IMG/VR virus record: IMGVR_UViG_3300028897_000010
Span: 1 to 20,191 of that record
Source of the DNA: a virus
Direction: 5' to 3' (one strand)
Length of the DNA: 20,191 bases
The position numbers were made by a program, and so were the translations under genes. Under the pieces are notes generated by a model that worked only from the letters and a program-made list of their open reading frames with translations, ran no database searches and had not been told where the DNA came from. How positions within the stretch are numbered: the first letter of the stretch is position 1; each line of letters starts with the position of its first letter. This document shows positions 6,810 to 20,191 of the stretch, one piece after another.

Positions 6810-7166
6810 ATGTCGCTCCCCTCCCGCGTTTTGGCAGCTGGCTCAAGCCCGTTGCTTTCGACCACGATTTGCGGTGATGTTGGCAACACGCTGACCGCTG
6901 CTGGCTCATCCACTACCGATGCGCTACAACTTGCCGCCGTTCACAATCGAGTATCGACAACTGCATCGTCAACTGGCGTTAAATTGTTGCCTGCTGAAGC
7001 CGGCGCAATAATGACGGTTGCAAACGATGGCGCAAATACTTTGACTGTTTACCCGGCCACCGGCTCAACGATTGACGGCGCTGCGTCTGTTTCGATTGCA
7101 ACAACGAAACGTCGTATTTTTGTTGGTATCAGCCCGACCGTTTGGGTATCTATTCTCGGCGCTTAA
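6810..7166 (+). CDS. Small beta-rich virion protein, paralogue A
   Basis: The 118-residue protein is S/T/A/G/V-rich with a probable all-beta fold: MSLPSRVLAAGSS at the start, ICGDVGNTLTAAGSS in the first third, STGVKLLPAEAG in the middle, then NTLTVYPATG. The TGVKL...G...N.G....VYP.TG pattern is widespread in phage structural proteins of unknown role. It follows the terminator by 14 bp with AAGGA upstream, and its stop overlaps the ATG of a homologous gene. A virion surface or fibre-accessory function is inference only. Confidence 0.75.
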   Translation: MSLPSRVLAAGSSPLLSTTICGDVGNTLTAAGSSTTDALQLAAVHNRVSTTASSTGVKLLPAEAGAIMTVANDGANTLTVYPATGSTIDGAASVSIATTKRRIFVGISPTVWVSILGA

Positions 7167-7531
7167 TGACAATTCCGTCGCGTGTTTTGGGTGCTGGTGC
7201 TTCTCAACTTATGACCGTTGCCATTTGTGGCGACGGCGCTGATGATTTGACGGCCACCGGATCAACTAGCGCGGATGCGTTGCAGCTAACAAAAATTTAT
7301 AACTCAATTGATGCGGCAACCGCTGGAACTGGCGTAAAACTGCCGCCCACTCAAATGGGCACAACTATTTTTATTGCCAATTCTAGCGGTAGCGCGATCA
7401 AGGTTTATCCATACGAAGCAACAACAACGATAAATCAATCAGCATCCGCATCCATTTCAAAAGATCACACCAGCATATTTTTTGCTGTAACAAATTCGAT
7501 TTGGTATAGCATCAATGGAACTAAAACTTAA
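7166..7531 (+). CDS. Small beta-rich virion protein, paralogue B
   Basis: This 121-residue protein is homologous along its full length to the preceding gene product: MTIPSRVLGAG vs MSLPSRVLAAG, ICGDGADDLTATGS vs ICGDVGNTLTAAGS, GTGVKLPP vs STGVKLLP, IKVYPYEAT vs LTVYPATGS. Identity is roughly 40% by eye. The start at 7166 lies in a TAATG overlap with paralogue A and is preferred over the in-frame ATG at 7142, because only it matches the paralogue N-terminus and avoids a longer overlap. The pair is an old tandem duplication. The function is unknown, as for its partner. Confidence 0.78.
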   Translation: MTIPSRVLGAGASQLMTVAICGDGADDLTATGSTSADALQLTKIYNSIDAATAGTGVKLPPTQMGTTIFIANSSGSAIKVYPYEATTTINQSASASISKDHTSIFFAVTNSIWYSINGTKT

Positions 7532-8109: not shown

Positions 8110-9021
8110 ATGTCTAGCACGATGTTGCAGCTTGTGCAGCAGGTTACAAATGAGCTCGGCGTTTCGACGCCGACATATGTGGCTGGCAACACTAATCAAG
8201 ATGTAACGCAGATTTTAGCGTTGATGAACGCAACTGGTTATGAACTGCTGCGCCGACACAATTGGCGTGCGATGACAAAGCAACACGGATTTTATACTCA
8301 ATACCTGACCACGACCGGAAACTGGACCACCGCAGCGCGCACAATTACGGGCATTCCAAGCACTGCCGGTCTAGATGCGACTTATCAAGTGCAAGGCACT
8401 GGCATCAACCAAAATACTTATATCGTGTCGGTTGATAGCGCAACGCAGGTGACCGTCAATCAAGACTTTGCAGCCGCTGGCGGCGTTGACGCAACCGCCT
8501 ATTTTCAGAAAATCCGATATAGTTTGCCGAGCGATTACGAGGCGCTTATTCCGCGCACAATGTGGGATAAGTCAAAGCATTGGGAAATGCTCGGCCCCGA
8601 GGATGCGCAGCAATGGGAGTGGTTGTTGTCAGGTTATATCAGCACTGGCCCGCGCATCCGCTGGCGTTTGCTTGGCAATTATTTTCAAATTTGGCCCGGT
8701 ATGTCTACGGCAGAAAGCCTCGGATTTGAATATCGCAGCAACGGATGGGCAGAAGCGGCAGATGGAACCGTAAAAACCAGTTTTACGGCAGATACAGACA
8801 CCACGATATACCCAGATCGTTTGATGGTGCTTTCTACAAAACTCAAGTATTTTGAGGCTAAGGGTTTTGATACGACTGCCATGTATCGAAATTATTTGAT
8901 GGAACTTGAGGCCGCGATGGCGCTAGATATGTCAAGCGCAAACCTGAGTTTTGCGCCGCGGCCTGGCACTGTTTTGATCGGCTACGACAATATACCGGAC
9001 ACCGGATATGGCCCGAACTAG
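8110..9021 (+). CDS. Head-to-tail adaptor protein (P22 gp4/T7 gp11-like position) with inserted beta domain
   Basis: The 303-residue protein probably binds below the portal and extends the channel. The N-terminal helical part (residues 1-57: MLQLVQQVTNELGV ... LMNATGYELLRRHNW) matches the helical-bundle opening of phage adaptors. It is interrupted at about 65-131 by a beta-sandwich-like module (TITGIPSTAGLDATYQVQG ... TYIVSVDSATQVTVNQDF), then resumes at YSLPSDYEALIPRTMWD. The C-terminal part has conserved-looking IRWRLLGNYFQIWPG and FEYRSNGWAEAADG, then a helix FEAKGFDTTAMYRNYLMELEAAM, cut here for length. It lies just upstream of the hub gene, overlapping it by 14 nt. The adaptor assignment is good; the exact family is uncertain. 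Confidence 0.75.
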   Translation: MSSTMLQLVQQVTNELGVSTPTYVAGNTNQDVTQILALMNATGYELLRRHNWRAMTKQHGFYTQYLTTTGNWTTAARTITGIPSTAGLDATYQVQGTGINQNTYIVSVDSATQVTVNQDFAAAGGVDATAYFQKIRYSLPSDYEALIPRTMWDKSKHWEMLGPEDAQQWEWLLSGYISTGPRIRWRLLGNYFQIWPGMSTAESLGFEYRSNGWAEAADGTVKTSFTADTDTTIYPDRLMVLSTKLKYFEAKGFDTTAMYRNYLMELEAAMALDMSSANLSFAPRPGTVLIGYDNIPDTGYGPN

Positions 9022-10588
9022 AGGCGTCAATCAGCTGGTGCAGCGAGCAGCTGCCCGCGTGGCGTCTATTCCGGCGCCAGTGGGCGGCTGGAACGCGCGC
9101 GACTCCATCGCAAACATGGAGCCATTAGACGCGGTGCAGTTAATAAATTTTTTCCCCACTGTTAGCAATTGCGTTTTGCGCGGCGGCTCAACAAACTGGG
9201 CAACCGGCATGACTGGGCAAGTGCAAAGCCTGATGGTTTACAGCGGCGGCACTTCAAATAAGATGTTTGCCGCTGTTGGAACGCCTGATTTAAAGTTTTA
9301 TGACGTCACAACTGCAGGTGTTGCTACCGCCACCAGCGTAACAGGGCTTACTAATGCAATTTGGGAATACGTCAATATAACGACCTCCGGCGGCCATTAT
9401 TTGTATACCGTCAACGGCTCAGATAAGCCGCGCCTTTACGATGGCACCACTTGGACGGCAATAGATAGCGCATCAACGCCTGCAATCACTGGCGTTACAA
9501 CAACGACGCTATCAAACGTCACGCTGTTTAAAAATCGTTTGTGGTTTATTCAAAAAGACACGCTAAAAGCATGGTATCTGCCGACCAGTTCAATCGGCGG
9601 CGCTGCGCAGGTTTTGGATTTATCAGCAATTGCCAAGTTTGGCGGCCATCTGGTCGATTTGGATACTTGGACGATTGACGCCGGATATGGGGTTGACGAT
9701 AACCTTGTTTTTGTGACCAGCAATGGCGAAGTTATTGTTTATCGAGGCACCGATCCCTCTAGCGATGCCACTTGGGCGCTCGCGGGCGTCTGGAAGTTAG
9801 GCAGCCCGATCGGCAACCGGTCAATGTTGAAATGGGCTGGCGATCTGCTGATTTTGACTTATGACGGTTTGATGCCAATGGCGCAAAGTCTGCAATCTTC
9901 TCGGCTTGATCCTCGCGTTGCGCTGTCAAATAAAATACAAGGCGCAATTACTCAGGCAACAACCAATTACGGCGGCGATCATGCCGCTGTCGGTTGGCAG
10001 GTTTATTACAACGCAAAACGAAATGCAGTCTGGATAAATGTGCCAATTGCTGAAGGTCAGCAAGAGCAATACGTGATGAACACTATCACGCGAAGCTGGT
10101 GCCAATTTCAGAACTGGCCTGCTAATTGTTGGGATACGCTAAACGATAACCCGTATTATGGCGGTGATGGCGTTGTTGTCAAAGCGTGGGATGATACTTA
10201 TTCTGATGGTGCATCAAACATTTTTACAAACGTTTTCCAAGCATTTAATTATTTTGATAGCAGAGGCGTTAAAAAATATTTCACTAGAGCGCGGCCTAGT
10301 ATTTTTACAAATGGCGCGCCTTCAGTTTTTGTTGGCATGAATGTTGATTTTGACGTCGAAGATACGGCGGCAACACTATCATTGTCCCCGTCATCTGTTG
10401 GTTTGTGGGATTCTGGAAGATGGGATTCTGCTTTTTGGGGTTCTGGTCTGGAAATTACAAACAATTGGCAAGGCATTACCGGCATAGGTTATTGCGGCTC
10501 TATACAGCTCAAGAGCGCAAGCAGCGGATTGCAGATTGAATGGGCATCAACAGATGTGGTATTTCAAACCGGATGGGCAGGTATATAG
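9008..10588 (+). CDS. Tail hub / DNA-stabilisation protein (P22 gp10-like position)
   Basis: The 526-residue protein has many short repeated beta segments (LKFYDVTTAG, LYTVNGSDKPRLYDGTTW, LWFIQKDTLKAWYLPTSS, LVFVTSNGEVIVYRGTDP, DLLILTYDGLMPM), as expected for a beta-propeller tail hub or packaged-DNA stabilisation protein. The N-terminus IPAPVGGWNARDSIANMEP and the C-terminus, with GLWDSGRWDSAFWGSG then an IEWASTDVVFQTGW end, are typical of this environmental podovirus tail family as I recall it. It overlaps the adaptor gene upstream and the GNAT gene downstream. The role as a tail component is likely; equivalence to gp10 is inferred from order and fold signs. Confidence 0.75.
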   Translation: MARTRGVNQLVQRAAARVASIPAPVGGWNARDSIANMEPLDAVQLINFFPTVSNCVLRGGSTNWATGMTGQVQSLMVYSGGTSNKMFAAVGTPDLKFYDVTTAGVATATSVTGLTNAIWEYVNITTSGGHYLYTVNGSDKPRLYDGTTWTAIDSASTPAITGVTTTTLSNVTLFKNRLWFIQKDTLKAWYLPTSSIGGAAQVLDLSAIAKFGGHLVDLDTWTIDAGYGVDDNLVFVTSNGEVIVYRGTDPSSDATWALAGVWKLGSPIGNRSMLKWAGDLLILTYDGLMPMAQSLQSSRLDPRVALSNKIQGAITQATTNYGGDHAAVGWQVYYNAKRNAVWINVPIAEGQQEQYVMNTITRSWCQFQNWPANCWDTLNDNPYYGGDGVVVKAWDDTYSDGASNIFTNVFQAFNYFDSRGVKKYFTRARPSIFTNGAPSVFVGMNVDFDVEDTAATLSLSPSSVGLWDSGRWDSAFWGSGLEITNNWQGITGIGYCGSIQLKSASSGLQIEWASTDVVFQTGWAGI

Positions 10589-11007
10589 CATCAGGGCCGG
10601 ATATCGGCCATTGGGTTGCAAAACACGTCGATGGCGGTTTTTTTGAAGGCAGGGCGACTGCTTTAGGATTGAAGCGAGATGATGAAATCATTGCCGGCGT
10701 CATTTATGAAAACTGGAACCATCAAAGCATCTGGTGCCATTTCGCAATTCAGGGGCAAATGACGCCGGCCTATTTGGCGGCAATATTTGATTACCCGTAT
10801 AACGTATGCCAAGTGGAAAAAATTATTGTGCCGGTGGGCAGCGACAATGCGCAAAGCACAAAAGTGGTGAAAAACATGGGTTTTAAGGAAGAAGGCAGAA
10901 TCAAGAACGGCAGGCCAAATGGTGACATTGTTTTTTACACGTTGCACCGAGATGATTGCCGTTTTTTAAATAAACGATACAGCAAAAGGATAGAAAATCA
11001 TGGGTAA
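10573..11007 (+). CDS. GNAT-like acetyltransferase family protein
   Basis: From the ATG at 10573 the product has 144 residues (MGRYIASGPDIG...). This start is preferred over the in-frame ATG at 10540 because family members begin near this point and the overlap with the hub gene drops from 49 to 16 nt. Central strands GLKRDDEIIAGVIYENW and a C-terminal block SDNAQSTKVVKNMGFKEEG match the N..S..v...GF..EG block of RimJ/RimL-type N-acetyltransferases. A clear R/Q-x-x-G-x-G/A acetyl-CoA loop is not seen, so activity is uncertain. GNAT-like genes do occur among phage tail and internal-protein genes. The substrate is unknown: perhaps a virion protein or a host target. Confidence 0.72.
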   Translation: MGRYIASGPDIGHWVAKHVDGGFFEGRATALGLKRDDEIIAGVIYENWNHQSIWCHFAIQGQMTPAYLAAIFDYPYNVCQVEKIIVPVGSDNAQSTKVVKNMGFKEEGRIKNGRPNGDIVFYTLHRDDCRFLNKRYSKRIENHG

Positions 11008-13426
11008 ATCTTCCCCTTCGCCGCCCCCGGCACCGGATTACGCAGGCGCAGCTGCCGCACAAGGCGCGGCCAACTTGGAAACTGCGCAAGCGCAAGGCCG
11101 GATGAACAATCCAAACGTTATCGGCCCCCTCGGCAGCCAGACTGTCACGTGGGGGACGCCTACTTTTAACCAAGCCGCTTATGATAGAGCGATGGCGGCT
11201 TATACGGCGCAACCGCAACGCGGTGCACAGCCGACTTTAGACCAATTTAGGGTTGCCACGGGCAGCGATGAAGGCGGCACCACCTATGGTCTCGACCAAG
11301 ACGCCTACGCAAAGGCAATGACGGATTGGGCAAATTCTGGCGTTGCCGGCCCTGCGCCGACGCGCGAGCAATTTACGACCAATGCGAACGCCGATCAGGC
11401 CACGATCACGCAAACATTGACGCCGGCCGCACAAGCCACGCTAGACGCTCAGCAACGTGTTCAGCGGGCTTTGGCCAACTTGGGCGAGCAAGGTCTAGGA
11501 ACCGCAAGCAATGTGCTTGGAACGGCGTTTAATCCAAATCTGCCAGGTATTCAAACAGGCATCGGAAATGCAGGACAGATTGCGCAAACGCCCGATTTAG
11601 GCAGATACGGGCAGGCGGGCGCAAATGTTAGCGGCGGCCAAATAATGGAAACGCCCGATCTGGGGCGCTACGGCATGGCTAACGCAAACGTCAGCGCGCA
11701 GGGCGTAAATTACGGACCGCAAGCCGGCCAATATGGAATGGCGCAAGGCGGCCCCGCCGGCAATCAATTCGGCACCGCTGGCGCTAATGTCGAACGCCAA
11801 TTCGCCGGCGGCGGCCCATCGGCAGATCAATATGGACTGGCGCGAGGAAATATAAATTTCAATATGGCCAGAGGCGGTCCTGCTGCCGGGCAATATGGAA
11901 TGCAACAGGGCGGCGTGCAAGGCCCGCAATTGCAGACTAATCTGGATGCGTCGGGGCAAATCAGCGGCGGCCCGCAGATGGGTATGTATGGTTTGGCTCA
12001 AGGCGGCCCTGCGGTTGGCCAATTGCAAACATCATTAGACACGTCCAATTTGGCCGCAATGCCGATCAATGCGGGCACTACGGCGCAGCAGGCGATTATG
12101 TCTCGATTGCAGCCGCAGCTAGAGCGCCAGCGCGCACAGCTTGAAACTCGACTGGCTAATCAAGGGCTAGTCCGCGGCGGAGAGGCATATAACGCCGCTT
12201 TGACCGAACAAGGGCAGCGGGAAAATGATCTGCTGTCACAAGCTGCTTTGCAAGGCATAAATCTCGACCTGGCTGCACGTCAGCAAGGCTTGGGAGAAGC
12301 GCAAACTTTGGGCGGTTTTGCTAATCAGGCGGCTTTGTCGCAATTTGGCGCCGGCCAGCAGGCCAACCAAGCGCAAAATGCGGCCATGCAACAGAATTAT
12401 GCGCAGGCTATGGCGTCCGCACAACAGGGCAATGCCGCACAACAACAGGCGTTTAATCAGCGCGTGCAGGCCGGTGAATTCGGGAATGCGGCGCAAATTG
12501 CATCGTTTAATGCGGCGCTTCAGAACCAGCAAGCAGGCAATCAAGCGGCTGCGGCTAACTTTGCGCAGGCGCAGGCGGCGCAACAAATGCGAAATCAAGC
12601 TGCCGGCCAGAACTATCAGCAAGCACTGGGGGCTGGCCAGTTTGCCAATCAGGCCGCAGCCCAAAACTTCGCGCAAGGTCAATCTGCGCAACAACTTGCA
12701 AATCAAGCCGCAGCGCAAAACTTTGCGCAAAATGTCACTGCTCAACAATTGCAAAATCAAGCAATTGCTCAAAATTTTGGTCAAGGTCAGGCTGCAAACG
12801 CTGCGCAAAATGCCGCAATCGGGCAAAATTTCGCTCAAGGATTGTCTGCTCAACAGGCACAAAATGCAGCCGCGCAACAATACTATAATCAAATCATGGG
12901 CGAGCAAGGGTTCAGAAATCAAGCCGTCGCTCAAAATCAACAAACTGCATTGGCGCAACAACAAGCAGCACTTGCCGCGCAGCAACAAGGATTCGGGCAA
13001 CAGGTTACGCAGCAACAATTGGCGAATCAGGCGCTCAGTCAAAATCAGCAGGCGGCCTTGCAACAACAGCAGGCAGCCTTGGCGGCTCAGAATCAACAAT
13101 ACAACCAATTGTTGCAAGCCGCTCAATTTGGCAACACTGCGCAACAACAAAGCCTGCAACAGCAGCTCGCATTGCGGAATCAACCGCTAAACGAGATTGC
13201 CGGCTTGATGAGTGGTTCGCAGATTCAGATGCCGCAATTTCAAGGCTATCAAGGCGCAAACGTTGCGCCGCCGCCTATTTTTGCGGGCGCGCAAGCCGCA
13301 GGGCAGGCCGCGTTGCAGAATTACGGCATGCAGCAAGCTGCCGCTAATGCCAACACGCAAGGCTTGTTTGGTCTTGCGGGCGCAGGCCTTGGCGCTTATG
13401 GCATGATGAATATGCCTGTTCGTTAA
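11000..13426 (+). CDS. Large internal/ejection protein candidate with Q/A repeats
   Basis: The 808-residue protein begins MGKSSPSPPPAPDYAGAAA. It has an N-terminal domain with QTVTWGTPTFNQAAYDRAM; a Gly-rich repeat region (199-349) with recurring QYGMAQGGP-like units; a helical block 360-440 with LETRLANQGLVRGGEAYNAA; fifteen 18-residue repeats (443-712); and a C-terminus ending in a Gly/Ala hydrophobic segment (GLFGLAGAGLGAYGMMNM). The N-terminal and RLANQG parts match a family of large podovirus virion proteins I recall, of unproven function. Size, composition and place before two further large proteins favour an internal virion or ejection protein. AAAGGA at 10985-10990 supports the start. 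The ATG overlaps the GNAT stop by 8 nt. Confidence 0.72.
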   Translation: MGKSSPSPPPAPDYAGAAAAQGAANLETAQAQGRMNNPNVIGPLGSQTVTWGTPTFNQAAYDRAMAAYTAQPQRGAQPTLDQFRVATGSDEGGTTYGLDQDAYAKAMTDWANSGVAGPAPTREQFTTNANADQATITQTLTPAAQATLDAQQRVQRALANLGEQGLGTASNVLGTAFNPNLPGIQTGIGNAGQIAQTPDLGRYGQAGANVSGGQIMETPDLGRYGMANANVSAQGVNYGPQAGQYGMAQGGPAGNQFGTAGANVERQFAGGGPSADQYGLARGNINFNMARGGPAAGQYGMQQGGVQGPQLQTNLDASGQISGGPQMGMYGLAQGGPAVGQLQTSLDTSNLAAMPINAGTTAQQAIMSRLQPQLERQRAQLETRLANQGLVRGGEAYNAALTEQGQRENDLLSQAALQGINLDLAARQQGLGEAQTLGGFANQAALSQFGAGQQANQAQNAAMQQNYAQAMASAQQGNAAQQQAFNQRVQAGEFGNAAQIASFNAALQNQQAGNQAAAANFAQAQAAQQMRNQAAGQNYQQALGAGQFANQAAAQNFAQGQSAQQLANQAAAQNFAQNVTAQQLQNQAIAQNFGQGQAANAAQNAAIGQNFAQGLSAQQAQNAAAQQYYNQIMGEQGFRNQAVAQNQQTALAQQQAALAAQQQGFGQQVTQQQLANQALSQNQQAALQQQQAALAAQNQQYNQLLQAAQFGNTAQQQSLQQQLALRNQPLNEIAGLMSGSQIQMPQFQGYQGANVAPPPIFAGAQAAGQAALQNYGMQQAAANANTQGLFGLAGAGLGAYGMMNMPVR
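11594..12048 (+). repeat. Gly-rich degenerate repeats (YG units) in the large internal protein
   Basis: Residues about 199-349 contain seven spaced (Q/R/M)(Y/F)G-(M/L/Q/T)-A-type units: DLGRYGQAGANV, DLGRYGMANANV, QAGQYGMAQGGP, NQFGTAGANV, DQYGLARGNI, AGQYGMQQGG, GMYGLAQGGP. Most are followed by a G-rich or NV/NI linker and spaced about 15-30 residues. The units are too irregular for an array of fixed period, which contrasts with the strict 18-residue repeats downstream. Confidence 0.75.
12326..13135 (+). repeat. Fifteen tandem 54-nt (18-residue) coding repeats
   Basis: Residues 443-712 of the large internal protein divide exactly into fifteen 18-mers with no insertion or deletion. Examples: QAAAQNFAQGQSAQQLAN, QAAAQNFAQNVTAQQLQN, AAIGQNFAQGLSAQQAQN. 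Position 7 is F or Y in 13 of 15 units, position 18 is N in 13 of 15, position 2 is always A, and position 16 is often L, F, M or A. A partial sixteenth unit follows (TAQQQSLQQQLALRNQP). At DNA level the units are diverged, so selection has kept the protein period. Confidence 0.92.
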
Positions 13427-13441
13427 TTAGGGAATATCACA

Positions 13442-15052
13442 ATGGCTGAATCCTACAATTTCAACGTAGCAAACCCATACCAACAACAGCAGGAGGAGCT
13501 TGCTCGCCGTCAGAAAATGGCCGAAATCCTGCAACAACAGTCTTTTCAGCCCATCGAGCGCAGCAGTTATGCCGGCATCGAGGCGCCAATCTCACCTTAT
13601 GCGGGTTTGGCAAAAATGCTGCAAGCCTATGCCGGCGCAAAAGGGCAACAAAAGGTTGCGGAAGAAAGAGCGGCGCTTGCAGACGAGGCGCGGAATCGTT
13701 CTCAAATGGAAGGACGCGAGTTTATAAACGCATTGAAAGGCACGCCGGAAATACAAATGCCAGCGGAAGAACTGGGCGGCGGCCCCGGTCGACCGGCGCA
13801 GGGGCCGGATATGGCGCGCGCGTTGGAAATGTCCATGAGTTCTGTCAATCCGATGGTTCAAAGCGCTGGCGGCGCTCTTTTGGCGGCGTCATTGCCCAAA
13901 GCGTCGAAATGGGAAAAGGTGGAACTGCCGACGCCGGAAGGCGGGAAACGGGTCGGGTTTGTTGATATGAATTCGCCGAATCCGGAATCAACATTTCGCC
14001 TTGGCGGCGCACAAGGACCGAAAGTAGATTATGTTAATGTTGGCGGCACGATGGTTCCCCGAACTGGATATGAGCAAAATGCACAGGAAATTCCGCGCAC
14101 TGTATCGCCGGATACCGCTGCAAGGCTGGAACAAGAACGCGCGATATCGGATCGAAACTTTAATCAATTGTCTGCTAATCAACAAGCGCAATTGAAAAAT
14201 GATGCGGCCAAAATTGGAATCAGCGCGCAACAATTATTTTTTGATACAAACATTCGCGCTGGCGGCGCCGCAATGCCGCCTGCAACTGGTCCCAGTTATT
14301 TGCCTACGCCTACTGTCGCAGGTGCCGCACCTGCTGCGCCGGTTATGCCGTCAGCGGCACGGCCTGTTGGGCAAACTGTGCCTGCGCCTAGTGTCGCGCC
14401 TGTGCAAGCCGCACCTCGTATCGGCATGACGCCAGCTCGTCCTGCTCAATCAGTAACGCCGGCATTTTCACCTAATGCGGTTGGCCCGACTGGTCAATCT
14501 GTGCAAACAAATCAAGATAATGTTATCCAAACCGCTGCCGGCCCAGTTCAATTAAGCGGGAGAGAGCGTCAAAAATTAGCGGCTGCGGCACTTGAAGCGC
14601 AGCAAAAGAAAGAACAAGGAATGTCCGGCCTTGGCGAAGCCATTACAGAAGCAAGAAATATATTAACTGGCGTAAATCCATTGACCGGAACGCCTGGACA
14701 AAAACCATTACCTACTGCCAGCGTGGGCGGCAGTCTTATTGATTATCTTGGAAATATTGTCGGCATAGCACCGAAAGGGCAAAACGAGGCAAAACGACTT
14801 GAAGTTATTTCTGCAATATTGACATCAAAAGTGCCTAGAATGGAAGGGCAGCAATCTAATATGGATGTCGAGCTTTACAAAAAAGCGGCTGGTGATGCTG
14901 GCAATTCCAATTTGCCAATTAGCGCAAGACTTGCTGCATTAGATACAATGCAAAAACTTTATGGAAAATATGAGCGGCTTAACGCGCCCGCAGCAAATCA
15001 ACAAACGCAATCACCGCAATCAAATCAGCGTAGATACACGGTGGATTATTAA
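13442..15052 (+). CDS. Second internal/ejection protein candidate
   Basis: The 536-residue protein has an N-terminal helical Q/E/R-rich region (PYQQQQEELARRQKMAEILQ) followed by SPYAGLAKMLQAYAGAKGQQ, a phrase I recall from large podovirus internal proteins. Next is a middle section with SLPKASKWEKVELPTPEGGKR and a long helical stretch around 228-262. An A/P-rich disordered linker spans about 273-352 (with APAAPVMPSAARP and TVPAPSVAPVQAAP). The C-terminal globular helical domain (about 367-520) includes RQKLAAAALEAQQKKEQG and ARLAALDTMQKLYGKYERL. No signal peptide or lysozyme motif is seen. AGGGAA at 13429-13434 supports the start. The function is inferred from context. Confidence 0.7.
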   Translation: MAESYNFNVANPYQQQQEELARRQKMAEILQQQSFQPIERSSYAGIEAPISPYAGLAKMLQAYAGAKGQQKVAEERAALADEARNRSQMEGREFINALKGTPEIQMPAEELGGGPGRPAQGPDMARALEMSMSSVNPMVQSAGGALLAASLPKASKWEKVELPTPEGGKRVGFVDMNSPNPESTFRLGGAQGPKVDYVNVGGTMVPRTGYEQNAQEIPRTVSPDTAARLEQERAISDRNFNQLSANQQAQLKNDAAKIGISAQQLFFDTNIRAGGAAMPPATGPSYLPTPTVAGAAPAAPVMPSAARPVGQTVPAPSVAPVQAAPRIGMTPARPAQSVTPAFSPNAVGPTGQSVQTNQDNVIQTAAGPVQLSGRERQKLAAAALEAQQKKEQGMSGLGEAITEARNILTGVNPLTGTPGQKPLPTASVGGSLIDYLGNIVGIAPKGQNEAKRLEVISAILTSKVPRMEGQQSNMDVELYKKAAGDAGNSNLPISARLAALDTMQKLYGKYERLNAPAANQQTQSPQSNQRRYTVDY

Positions 15053-16648
15053 ATGGCTTACGAGATTGAGACAAAAGACGGGATTGTTATAAGAAATATT
15101 CCAGATAACATTAAACCCGACGATCCTAGCGTAAAAGCAAAAGTCACCAATGCTAGGCAGGCCCGCATGGCAGAGCAAGGCGCCACTGCTGAACAACTTT
15201 CTATTGCCGGAATCAATCCAACGGAAGGAATGAGCACAAGTCAGCGTTTTCTTGCTGGCGCAGGTAAAGCATTTTCAGACATTGGCCGCGGCGTTGGGCA
15301 ACTTGTCGGCGCCATTCCTCAATCGTCAATTGATGAATCTGCAAGATTGGATAAGCCGCTAATAAATACCGGCGCCGGAATGGCCGGAAATGTTGTCGGC
15401 AACGTGGCCGCACTGGCGCCTACCATGATGATTCCAGGAGCCAACACAATAGCTGGCGCCACCATTGGGGGGGGTTTGCTTGGAGCGGCGCAACCAGTCG
15501 AAACCGGGCAGTCAAGAGCGCAAAACATCGGCGCTGGTGCTTTGGGCGGCGCTTTAGGCCAAGGTGCCGCCAATGTAATTGGACGAGTAATACGTCCTGT
15601 GCAGTCTCAGCTTACGCCAGAGGTATCCGCATTAGCGTCTAAAGCTGAAAATGTTTATAACATTCCTTTGACGGCAGCAGATAAAACAGGTTCAAAACCT
15701 TTAAAAATTATTGAATCTGTTTTAGATCAATTGCCGTTAACTGCTGATCGTCAGGCATTGGTAAAAGAATTGCAACGATCTGCATTTAATAAAGCCGCAT
15801 TAGAAACAATTGGAGAATCTAGCACTAAAGCAACGCCTGAAATTTTAAATGCTGCGCGCACAAGAATTGGTGAATCTTTTAATGAATTATCAAAAAGAAA
15901 TACTGTAACTCTTGCTGATGATTTTCTTGATTCATTGGTTAACATTGAAAGCGGCATAAATCCTTTTACAAAACCAGCAGTGCGTGATGCGGTAGACAAA
16001 GGACTTGAACTTGCAACGCAAAAAACAATTAGCGGTAAAGATTACCAAAAAATTAGATCAACACTTGGCAAACAATCAAATGATGCGTTTGCTTCTGGCA
16101 ATAGCGAATTAGGACAAGCTTTAAAATCGCTTAAACTTGGTTTGGATGAAGCCGCAACCGGATCTGTTTCAGCAACAGACAAAGATGCATGGACATTGGC
16201 GCGTCAACAATGGCAATCTTTAAAAGTTATTGAAAAAGCAGCAGCGCCAACGTCTGCAGATGCGGTTGCTGGAAATGTATCTCCGGCAAAACTTGCGCAG
16301 GCTTTAATGTCTGTTGACAAAAAAGGATTTACATACGGAACCAGCAATCAAACTTTAGGAGATTTAGCAAGAATTGGGCAAGCTTTTGTAAAAGAGCAAA
16401 TTCCAAATTCAGGAACAGCGCAACGCAGTTTTTATCAAAAATTGATGAATAATCCAATCACTGCAGTATTAGAAGGCGGTATTGGTGGGGTTTCTGTTCC
16501 GATGCAAAGAATTATGCAAAGTAAAATAGGACAAACATATTTAGGTCAGGGTCCTGTATCAGAAAAAACACTTGCTCTTGCAAGAAAACTTAAAGAAGGC
16601 GCTGGCATTGTTGGAAGCGCTGCTTTACCGAATTACGTGGAACAATAA
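15053..16648 (+). CDS. Third internal/ejection protein candidate with Gly-zipper segment
   Basis: The 531-residue protein opens with a small beta unit (YEIETKDGIVIRNIPDNIKP) seen in other phage proteins. It continues into a Gly/Ala-rich hydrophobic stretch at about 107-179 (NTGAGMAGNVVGNVAALAP, GATIGGGLLGAA, IGAGALGGALGQGAANVIG) that looks like a glycine-zipper membrane-active segment. The remainder is a long helical domain (190-530). Such a segment would suit a protein inserted into the host envelope during DNA ejection, as proposed for podovirus ejection proteins. The ATG follows the previous TAA directly, with no clear Shine-Dalgarno site. The second half is much more AT-rich than the head genes. 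The last domain includes LMNNPITAVLEGGIGGVSVP, a second hydrophobic Gly-rich patch. Confidence 0.7.
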   Translation: MAYEIETKDGIVIRNIPDNIKPDDPSVKAKVTNARQARMAEQGATAEQLSIAGINPTEGMSTSQRFLAGAGKAFSDIGRGVGQLVGAIPQSSIDESARLDKPLINTGAGMAGNVVGNVAALAPTMMIPGANTIAGATIGGGLLGAAQPVETGQSRAQNIGAGALGGALGQGAANVIGRVIRPVQSQLTPEVSALASKAENVYNIPLTAADKTGSKPLKIIESVLDQLPLTADRQALVKELQRSAFNKAALETIGESSTKATPEILNAARTRIGESFNELSKRNTVTLADDFLDSLVNIESGINPFTKPAVRDAVDKGLELATQKTISGKDYQKIRSTLGKQSNDAFASGNSELGQALKSLKLGLDEAATGSVSATDKDAWTLARQQWQSLKVIEKAAAPTSADAVAGNVSPAKLAQALMSVDKKGFTYGTSNQTLGDLARIGQAFVKEQIPNSGTAQRSFYQKLMNNPITAVLEGGIGGVSVPMQRIMQSKIGQTYLGQGPVSEKTLALARKLKEGAGIVGSAALPNYVEQ

Positions 16649-16695: not shown

Positions 16696-18195
16696 ATGAG
16701 CTACAACGGAAGCGGCACTTTTAATATCAACACTGCAGGTCAGCCGGTTGTTACCGGCACTGTTATTTCGTCTACTGCTTTTAACGCGCTGACGGCTGAT
16801 CTGGCGACCGGTCTATCGACTGCAATTACCAAAAACGGGCAAACGACTGTTGCAGCAAACATTCCGTTTAATAATTTCAAGCTCACCGGCGTTGGCGTGG
16901 CGACGGCAACGGGGGATGCGCTGTCCTACGGCCAGGCGGCTACCGTTACCTCGCTGGTCGCGTCCACCAGCATTACGGATTCTGCCCTCACCTCTGGCCG
17001 CGTGACATACGCAGGTGCAAGCGGTCTGCTGCAAGACTCTGCCAATTTGACGTTCAATGGCACGACGCTGACTGCCGCAGGATTGTCGGGCCCTCTCAAC
17101 GGCACCGTAGGCGCGACCACACCATCGACGGGTGCGTTTACGACGCTGAGTGCATCTAGCACAACAACCCTCTCAGGCGGCACCGCTAACGGCGTAGCCT
17201 ATCTTGACGGTAGCAAAGTCCTGACCACTGGTTCTGCGCTGACGTTTGATGGGACAAACTTGGGTGTTGGGGGTGCTTCATCAGGTGTGCGTCTTGATGT
17301 GTACGGCAGCATCACTGCACGGTCGGGCACTATAACGGCTGACGCTTACACCAATTACGGCACAAACCTTACGCTTAATTCCGGCGGCAGCTTGCCGATG
17401 GTTTTCCAGTTAAATGCGTCCGAACAAATGCGCCTGACCAGCACAGGGCTGGGGATTGGGACGAGTTTGCCTAAAGAGAAACTTGATTCTCGTGGCGCTG
17501 CGGTATTTAGCGGTGACAACACTACCGGCACCAACGCTTACGGCACAGCGGCAGGCTTGCTTCTCTCTACGTCATCCGACAATACCAAGGCGCGAATCAC
17601 CGCAGTCAGCAACGGTGCAAATAGCATCAGCCTCGTGCTACGGCCTTTGAGTTCTGGGAGCGCGGTTGATGCAGTAACCATCGACTCCTCCGGCAACTTG
17701 CTGGTGGGGGTTACAAGCGCAAACGCAAACGGCGGTGTGCTGCAATTAAAGAGTGGGATTACGTTTCCGGCAACACAGGTTACATCGTCAGACGCGAATA
17801 CGCTGGATGATTATGAGGAGGGAACGTGGACGCCGACAATAAAATTCGGCGGCGCATCAACTGGAATTACCTACACAACGCAAACCGGAACATATACGAA
17901 AATAGGTAATTTGGTTCGCATAACTGCCAACATTGTTTTAAGCAATAAAGGTTCGTCAACTACTTACGCGGAAATTTACGGAATTCCGTTTAACGGGCCA
18001 AGTGTGCTTGGTAACGGCGCTGGCATTGTTCCTTATTACGGCGGCATGTCTGGTTTAACCGGCCCAATGACTGTTGATATATATCAGACGCAAATTAGTT
18101 TAAGGGTTTTTAGTGCTACCCAGTCAACATCAGTTCAAGATACAAACTTCACAAATACCTCATCAATATATTTTACCTGCACATACTACGTTTAA
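16696..18195 (+). CDS. Tail fibre / receptor-binding protein
   Basis: The 499-residue protein is of classic tail-fibre composition (T, S, G, A, N). Residues 1-85 (FNINTAGQPVVTGTVIS, then TAITKNGQTTVAANIPFNNF) form the typical virion-attachment domain. The middle carries repeated beta units (GPLNGTVGATTPSTGAFTTL, LTFDGTNLGVGGASSGVRL). The C-terminal region starts with TLDDYEEGTWTPTIKFGG and GTYTKIGNLVRITANIVL, a domain found at the ends of many phage fibres and likely the receptor-binding tip. No S74-type intramolecular chaperone domain is visible. AAAGGA at 16682-16687 supports the start. The last third is more AT-rich than the rest. Confidence 0.85.
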   Translation: MSYNGSGTFNINTAGQPVVTGTVISSTAFNALTADLATGLSTAITKNGQTTVAANIPFNNFKLTGVGVATATGDALSYGQAATVTSLVASTSITDSALTSGRVTYAGASGLLQDSANLTFNGTTLTAAGLSGPLNGTVGATTPSTGAFTTLSASSTTTLSGGTANGVAYLDGSKVLTTGSALTFDGTNLGVGGASSGVRLDVYGSITARSGTITADAYTNYGTNLTLNSGGSLPMVFQLNASEQMRLTSTGLGIGTSLPKEKLDSRGAAVFSGDNTTGTNAYGTAAGLLLSTSSDNTKARITAVSNGANSISLVLRPLSSGSAVDAVTIDSSGNLLVGVTSANANGGVLQLKSGITFPATQVTSSDANTLDDYEEGTWTPTIKFGGASTGITYTTQTGTYTKIGNLVRITANIVLSNKGSSTTYAEIYGIPFNGPSVLGNGAGIVPYYGGMSGLTGPMTVDIYQTQISLRVFSATQSTSVQDTNFTNTSSIYFTCTYYV

Positions 18196-19639: not shown

Positions 19640-19908
19640 GATGGTGGTGGATTTCCATTATTTTGCTGTGTGTAATGTTTGCAAGAAGCGCGGAGAATCG
19701 GTGTTCTGTTTATGAGTTTCAGTCCATCGTTTTAATGGCGCATGATCCAACTGAGAGGCATAAATTAGCGGTGCAGTGGCTAAAAGAAAACGGCAACAGG
19801 TGCTCCCCTCAACAGTTGATGTATATACAGAATCGCAGGGCTGAGTGGTTAGGAACAGCGGATTCGCTTCAAATTCAAAACATGATTAACGCTTTGTTGG
19901 AGAGATAA
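19636..19908 (+). CDS. Small exported protein (GTG start)
   Basis: The 90-residue frame opens with GTG overlapping the previous TGA (GTGA), and there is no in-frame ATG near the start. The N-terminus MRWWWISIILLCVMFARSAE is a short signal peptide or N-terminal membrane anchor, with possible cleavage after RSA. The mature part has two Cys (ENRCSVYEF and NRCSPQQL) and ends with a QNRRAEWLGTADSLQIQNM helix. No lipobox is seen at the cysteine, so it is not a typical Rz1 lipoprotein. It is probably periplasmic. The function is unknown; location in a lysis block suggests envelope disruption or regulation. The stop overlaps the next ATG (TAATG). Confidence 0.68.
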   Translation: MRWWWISIILLCVMFARSAENRCSVYEFQSIVLMAHDPTERHKLAVQWLKENGNRCSPQQLMYIQNRRAEWLGTADSLQIQNMINALLER

Positions 19909-20191
19909 TGTTTCCTCTCGGTGCCATCCTCGATATTGGCAGCAAACTGGTCGATAAATTTTTCCCCGATCCGGCGCAAGCTGAGCAGGCCAAACTCAAA
20001 CTGCTGGAAATGCAACAGAATGGCGAACTGGCGCAGCTTGCGGCGGCAACAGATCTGGCGAAATTGCAGATCCAGACCAATATGGAAGAAGCAAAAAGCA
20101 CCAACTGGTTTGTGGCCGGTTGGCGCCCATTTGTCGGCTGGATCTGTGGTGCGGGGCTGGCGTATGTGGCAATCTTTGAACCGATAGCGCG
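19908..20191 (+). CDS. Holin of the 3-TM family (3' partial)
   Basis: The frame starts at ATG 19908 (TAATG overlap) and runs open to the right edge, giving 94 codons so far. The N-terminus is MFPLGAILDIGSKLVDKFFP, then an E/K/Q-rich amphipathic helix (AEQAKLKLLEMQQNGELAQL), then NWFVAGWRPFVGWICGAGLA entering a membrane helix and Pro-containing loop (FEPIA). The GWRPFVGW motif after a charged helix is the signature of the 3-TM holin family known from phages and gene-transfer agents. At least one further membrane helix lies off the edge. This frame is preferred over the overlapping one from 19921, which encodes a W/R/S-rich product without family resemblance. Confidence 0.82.
   Translation, partial: MFPLGAILDIGSKLVDKFFPDPAQAEQAKLKLLEMQQNGELAQLAAATDLAKLQIQTNMEEAKSTNWFVAGWRPFVGWICGAGLAYVAIFEPIA

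Follow-up and report, generated by a model that had tools for sequence, protein, structure and literature searches.

Two length-matched repeat arrays flank an invariant hairpin in a predicted virion protein of short-tailed phages

Gene neighbourhood of the repeat protein

The window analysed here, a 20,191-nucleotide stretch of viral DNA, carries genes for a portal (PHROG 12082), a major head protein (PHROG 9953) and tail proteins. A PHROG search of the window gave a short-tailed gene set in which no long-tail genes were recognised, and the gene order matches annotations in phiGT1, Mx8, RHph_N2 and BUCT555. A partial ORF (1–504) ending GIPGIRYLDGGSR...TSNFVVFDDKIPKII lies just before the portal gene and found no match in Pfam or NCBIfam. 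In the C-terminus of the portal (about 2280–2560), Met, Gln and Ala recur in a repetitive segment (MQADMQITQAKAQADMQIEQMKMQ) that likely forms a barrel helix, and after the major head protein two adjacent, overlapping ORFs (6810–7166 and 7142–7531), probable tandem paralogues, are visibly alike (SRVLxAGxS...ICGD...). The gene at 9008–10588 matches PHROG 5107, labelled 'amidase'; in phiGT1 the corresponding slot contains a gene annotated as tubular tail B (P22 gp10-like), and the 'amidase' label looks wrong. A GTA_holin_3TM holin (19908–20189; PF11351, E 5e-21) stands at the window end.

The gene under study (11000..13426) encodes an 808-aa protein that matches PHROG 6121, 'virion structural protein' (E 4e-23), and no Pfam family. 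This gene, its immediate neighbours and all features of its product described below are on the + strand. Directly upstream, in the slot of P22 gp14 and T7 gp13, is a weakly GNAT-like gene (10540..11007; PF13420, E 0.0035, below the cutoff). Downstream are the second gene of a putative ejection trio (13442..15052; PHROG 33352 and gene order) and the third (15053..16648; PHROG 26400 'DNA ejection protein', E 1e-46), and a separate tail-fibre candidate occupies 16696–18195. In P22, needle gene 26 precedes gene 14 and gene 7 follows it, and in T7 gene 14 follows gene 13; because of these two gene orders, we place the 808-aa protein in the gp7/gp14 slot. The position that gene 26 takes in P22, between the tube-B and gp14-slot genes, is empty in the window. 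The authors of the phiGT1 study reported that 'IVPB' and 'IVPD' match syntenic Mx8 genes (PMC10386132), and we infer that IVPB is the phiGT1 counterpart of the gene studied here.

Using hhalign, we found that the protein is homologous to its counterpart in RHph_N2 (99.9%) and to Mx8 p54 (99.2%). No homology to T7 gp14 or P22 gp7 was detected (probability 0.3 and 0.4, from single sequences, where distant homology could be missed), and there was no similarity to the P22 needle gp26. The preliminary description of this DNA had called the protein an ejection-protein candidate; gene order upholds that designation, and sequence homology to T7 gp14 or P22 gp7 does not contribute to it. A tblastn search of phages with the whole protein gave no match, for which the low-complexity filter is a likely cause, and shorter queries against 50,697 phage records returned only relatives lacking the arrays among the records examined. 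A search of a genome collection added one MAG contig (L091), and all array-bearing family members are uncultivated, as judged by the phage-record searches.

Two arrays that change length in step

The protein begins with an N-terminal domain (residues 1–189; 11000..11566) defined by the AF2 model and by conserved motifs (NPN..GPLG and AQQRVQ); it consists of the MGKSSPSPPPAPDY start, a helix, a beta-hairpin and further helices, with pLDDT about 70–89 over residues 1–175. A Gly-rich array with units of ~10.5 aa follows (residues 190–353; 11567..12058; identity 0.31 at lag 21), and then a helical hairpin (residues 354–424; 12059..12271; MPINAG...LANQGLVRGGEAY...NDLLSQAALQGINLDL) with AF2 helices at 362–387 and 395–443. 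The MPINAG-to-QGL anchor segment within the hairpin is invariant in length, at 34 aa in 149/149 homologues. Beyond it lie a helix array of 16 gap-free 18-residue units (residues 425–712; 12272..13135), delimited by register, homologue lengths and covariation, a closing unit that stays in register (residues 713–730; 13136..13189; TAQQQSLQQQLALRNQPL) and runs into anchor B (PLNEI), and a C-terminal segment (residues 731–808; 13190..13423) with the GSQIQMPQFQGYQG motif and a hydrophobic Gly-rich tail (GLFGLAGAGLGAYGMM). Family members range in size between about 300 aa and more than 1,000 aa.

Fifteen of the 18-mers, at residues 443–712 (12326–13135), had been reported in the preliminary description as gap-free units that have diverged in DNA, 13 of them carrying F/Y at position 7 and 13 carrying N at position 18. 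Our recount gave zero indels and the same residue counts, and the DNA units have a mean identity of 44% and a maximum of 74%. A count of 13/15 for F/Y7 or N18 was reached by none of 20,000 composition-preserving shuffles, and residue identity is 0.42 at lag 18 versus 0.16–0.19 at lags 16, 17 and 19. One additional unit (residues 425–442; AARQQGLGEAQTLGGFAN), with N at position 18 and L at position 7, precedes the fifteen, and the flanks 371–424 and 713–730 keep the same 18-residue register. The two units lacking F/Y7 (starting at 641 and 677; QxQNQ...L) also lack N18 and alternate with normal units, forming two 36-mers.

Scans of viral contigs yielded 156 distinct homologous arrays, whose length was measured from QGL of the hairpin to PLNEI after the array; the unit number n includes two flanking units, so that the array itself has n-2 units, and n is 18 in the window. 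The lengths fall into one class mod 18 in 155 of the 156, and the control distances, taken over flanking regions of the same proteins, show 44 and 25 different values that occupy most of the 18 residue classes. The unit number takes 26 values between n=3 and n=43 (arrays of 1 to about 41 units), and parsimony on a tree with 139 tips requires 56 or more changes in it. Steps of 7 or 11 residues were not seen in the homologous arrays, and a 36-residue quantum, as for a helix pair, was rejected since the unit numbers are both odd and even. Register 0 scored best for 592/592 units of the first set, a mildly circular result because these units also supplied the profile. The sole out-of-register array is L230 (n about 31; anchor distance 576), which has one extra Gly (QFGMGGAQGLGLYN), either a real case of tolerance or a sequencing error. 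The proposal in the preliminary description that unit number would vary in whole 18-residue steps is thus borne out in 155/156 arrays, and this supports its suggestion that length or phase is under selection.

The Gly-rich segment upstream of the hairpin, which the preliminary description did not mention, is a second repeat array, at its cleanest in L016 (YGQAGGVNPNA, YGQAGAVNAGA, YGQAGGVNADA). Its length follows the number of helix units with 10.54±0.04 residues per 18-residue unit (R2 0.999) in 54 of 63 distinct points, within a band chosen after the data had been seen. The other nine points are all above the line, and those inspected carry non-repetitive inserts in the hairpin-distal part of the segment; such inserts, of roughly 30–85 residues, occur in L009, L013, L019, L035, L043, L046, L053, L061 and L074 and are possibly looped-out or exposed segments. 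Without the band, the slope is 10.9 with a Spearman coefficient of 0.90 (first set) and the Theil–Sen slope is 10.5 (full set). Loci gathered after the rule had been noticed gave 10.45±0.05 (R2 0.9997, n=7–43), which takes the rule beyond n=25 and up to n=43. The tree-corrected slope is 10.5, with r 0.84 over all tips and r 0.9999 within the band, which inflates r. The window fits the line, with 204 aa in the fitted segment (150–353) against 204.7 predicted at n=18. Artefacts of metagenome assembly could alter repeat counts, but hardly a second, unrelated array in step.

Portal length (701–824 aa) is unrelated to unit number (rho 0.01), and this gives no support to the earlier idea that the repeats line the portal channel; a portal-matching model was rejected on the same ground. 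Scaling of the two downstream genes with the array was likewise rejected, the correlations being weakly negative (rho -0.42 and -0.31). Because neither the portal nor the two downstream genes scale with n, the length match is specific to the two arrays.

The match extends to where the changes occur. ANTIPARALLEL pairing is suggested by close relatives: those differing by k helix units differ by 11k residues in the Gly-rich array, with a deviation of -4 to +5 (310 pairs, not independent). The indel breakpoints are mirrored about the hairpin (Pearson 0.95 in 24 non-redundant pairs), a correlation in which many pairs lie near the hairpin and which leans on a few distant ones. Helix units with Q at position 7 and Gly-rich units of the form [QV]IxxxPxL share the same index from the hairpin in 28 coincidences versus 6.3 expected (null maximum 13), partly as a consequence of length matching because both lie near the far end. 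For interior units, AQLxSF units pair with LQxxLD units at offset -1 (17 versus 3.8 expected, null maximum 13); in L011, for example, helix units 5, 8, 12 and 16 go with Gly-rich positions 3.9, 6.7, 10.6 and 14.3. Comparison of L048 and its relatives with L064 revealed one protein in which a helix block of 3 units (54 aa) has been duplicated together with a Gly-rich block of 29 aa, which, read from the sequences, is a direct matched co-duplication at 9.7 residues per unit.

Fold of the 18-residue units

The AF2 model of the window protein, made from an alignment of 40 sequences, places helices at 453–544, 563–662 and 680–726 with pLDDT mostly 45–80, and the array region of a short homologue was also modelled as helical with low confidence. 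Covariation across 735 distinct units peaks at a separation of 4, is near-equal at 1–3 and drops at 5; at separations of 17–19 it is negative, with no signal of unit-to-unit stacking. This pattern fits a helix rather than stacked beta coils. The i,i+4 peak and the low-confidence AF2 helices make a phase-locked long helix likely, in support of the long, nearly uncharged helix of the preliminary description, and we consider the 18-mers probably alpha-helical. Its alternative proposal, an array of short helices capped at the Asn, is not favoured, since proline is absent from the array units and the register is continuous with the helical flanks. An ideal helix places positions 7 and 16 at 340 and 160 degrees, with an angle of exactly 180 degrees between them, in agreement with the earlier statement that they fall on opposite faces, and the helical wheel puts the conserved positions 2, 3, 5, 7, 9, 11, 16 and 18 on two opposite faces. 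Against a helix, large hydrophobic residues occur at positions 3, 7, 11 and 16. Because the strongest hydrophobic harmonic is 4.5 residues instead of 3.6, the array is not a classical amphipathic helix.

A profile search found no solved relatives. A PDB fold search gave weak matches only (best E 2.8), and the best VIA-align match (Z 6.2, to a designed bundle) is within the chance range for helical models. Matches in a viral fold library were uncultured-phage proteins named 'intramolecular chaperone auto-processing', consistent with the link to peptidase S74 discussed below.

A paired-array rod and its alternatives

The 18-residue Q/A/N array and the ~10.5-residue Gly-rich array flank an invariant hairpin, vary 1:1 and do so in mirror image, and we propose that they form two paired tracks that quantise the length of a rod. 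The 18-mers would form one continuous alpha-helix, in which 18 residues make 5 turns and 27 Å, so added units would leave both ends in rotational phase. The Gly-rich chain would run antiparallel along the helix in an extended form, at 27 Å/10.54 = 2.6 Å per residue, a plausible value for a kinked extended chain. The product would be a hairpin-shaped rod in which the Gly-rich chain leads out to the hairpin and the helix leads back; because each Gly-rich unit would dock on one helix unit, units would be kept only as matched pairs, and the rod would lengthen stepwise, by about 2.7 nm for each unit pair, to about 43 nm in the window and about 110 nm in the longest member. From gene order, it may be the first of three ejection proteins, in the T7 gp14/P22 gp7 slot, and may serve in genome delivery as an oligomer, either a rod or a conduit element, with a length that would be tuned to the host envelope.

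The paired antiparallel architecture is probable from the sequence comparisons, and the ejection role, suggested by gene order, is tentative and falls a little short of an even chance; architecture and role taken loosely together are somewhat favoured. For the full proposal, a double ruler in which two unlike arrays pair antiparallel and, over 1 to about 41 units, change in evolution as matched pairs, so that a genome-delivery rod is retuned stepwise, we see the balance as even. Against it, AF2 models the Gly-rich array as coil with pLDDT below 50, and its confidence is low in both arrays. The rule of 18 to about 10.5 residues, 1:1 and mirrored, amounts to a checkable structure prediction from indels alone. 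If true, indel covariation would read out contacts that structure prediction misses, with the warning that single-chain prediction can miss long-range pairing that is plain from comparative genomics. Length, phase and pairing are each separately testable in this one protein, which may show how short-tailed phages fit their reach to different cell envelopes.

The strongest competitor, which we consider possible but unlikely, is a trimeric external needle or fibre, with the paired arrays forming a homotrimer shaft outside the head, a self-cleaving C-terminal S74 chaperone aiding assembly and the hydrophobic Gly-rich end serving as a membrane-contacting tip. A peptidase S74 domain follows the C-terminal segment in 45 of 155 distinct homologues by motif (~29%) and in 14 of 40 aligned members by Pfam, and in MyRF the ICA domain, which is of S74 type, requires trimerisation for its cleavage (PMC8326128); both points speak for this reading. 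So do the empty needle position and the longest shafts, whose length of about 110 nm suits a fibre better than an internal protein: if alpha-helical, the n=43 array would be longer than both a podophage head of typical size and any periplasm of usual width, a difficulty for a protein acting internally and spanning the envelope. However, S74 is missing from most members, including, by Pfam search, the window protein; the gene follows the gp14-slot gene beside two putative ejection proteins rather than taking the needle slot; a separate tail-fibre candidate is present; and similarity to P22 gp26 was not found.

A stacked beta-solenoid, with one 18-residue and one 10.5-residue coil per layer and about 0.5 nm per unit, is improbable. 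It would give 1:1 matching at any residue ratio, and the QxIxQxFxQxL alternation, the Gly/Asn at possible corners and the hydrophobic period of 4.5 would suit it. The covariation instead peaks at 4 and is absent at 17–19, where stacked coils should couple, the units are Ala/Gln-rich and free of proline, both AF2 models are helical, and relatives lacking the arrays show, by eye, a helix-like segment there.

Very improbable is the explanation that phase is under little selection and that whole-unit steps arise only as a by-product of mutation, when 54-nt units recombine unequally or slip. Duplications and deletions do involve whole units, and multi-unit blocks recur, as in the 3-unit block of L048, but the units are too diverged in DNA for easy slippage, and non-unit indels are absent from all but one array yet tolerated on both sides in the same genes; the mirrored, in-step change of the separate Gly-rich array would also be left unexplained. 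A disordered low-complexity tether with no fixed structure, to which the low AF2 confidence and the Q/A/N/G-rich composition might point, is already contradicted, since it would not keep a strict register and length coupling.

The T7 gp14 and P22 gp7 ejection proteins are one comparison for the proposed rod: their genes likewise come after that of the gp13/gp14 slot, with two more ejection-protein genes behind them. Among gp14-like proteins the size difference is below 30% (181–240 aa; PMC8954989), and their small size (~200 aa) is not shared by the 808-aa window protein; podophage ejection proteins are considered fairly fixed in size at the gp14 step, whereas members of the present family, in the same slot, differ several-fold while obeying a strict rule of length. 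The P22-type needle (gp26) and S74 trimeric fibres are likewise elongated virion proteins, and some dual-array members carry the S74 chaperone; gp26 differs in sequence and slot, and paired arrays are not described for it in the literature searched. We found no description of a dual array in the openly accessible literature searched. The tape measure proteins of siphophages, whose repeats are of 11 aa or follow an 11-11-18 pattern (PMC3271669), resemble the helix array in their gap-free repeats, aromatic residues at fixed spacing and whole-unit variation in number. They belong to long tails, whose length they set, whereas here the phage is short-tailed, the unit is different, the arrays are not known to set a tail length and there is a second paired array, a feature without description in the tape measure paper (PMC3271669).

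The PHROG 6121 relatives (Mx8 p54, the Sulfitobacter phages pCB2047-A/-C, phiGT1 and Rhizobium RHph_N2) have homologous N-terminal domains, hairpins and C-terminal parts in the same slot; in those inspected the Gly-rich array is missing and the helix array is present as a trace at most. In these array-less relatives the anchor distance is 46 or 64 residues, values that are 18 apart, and 67 in ctMlz233.
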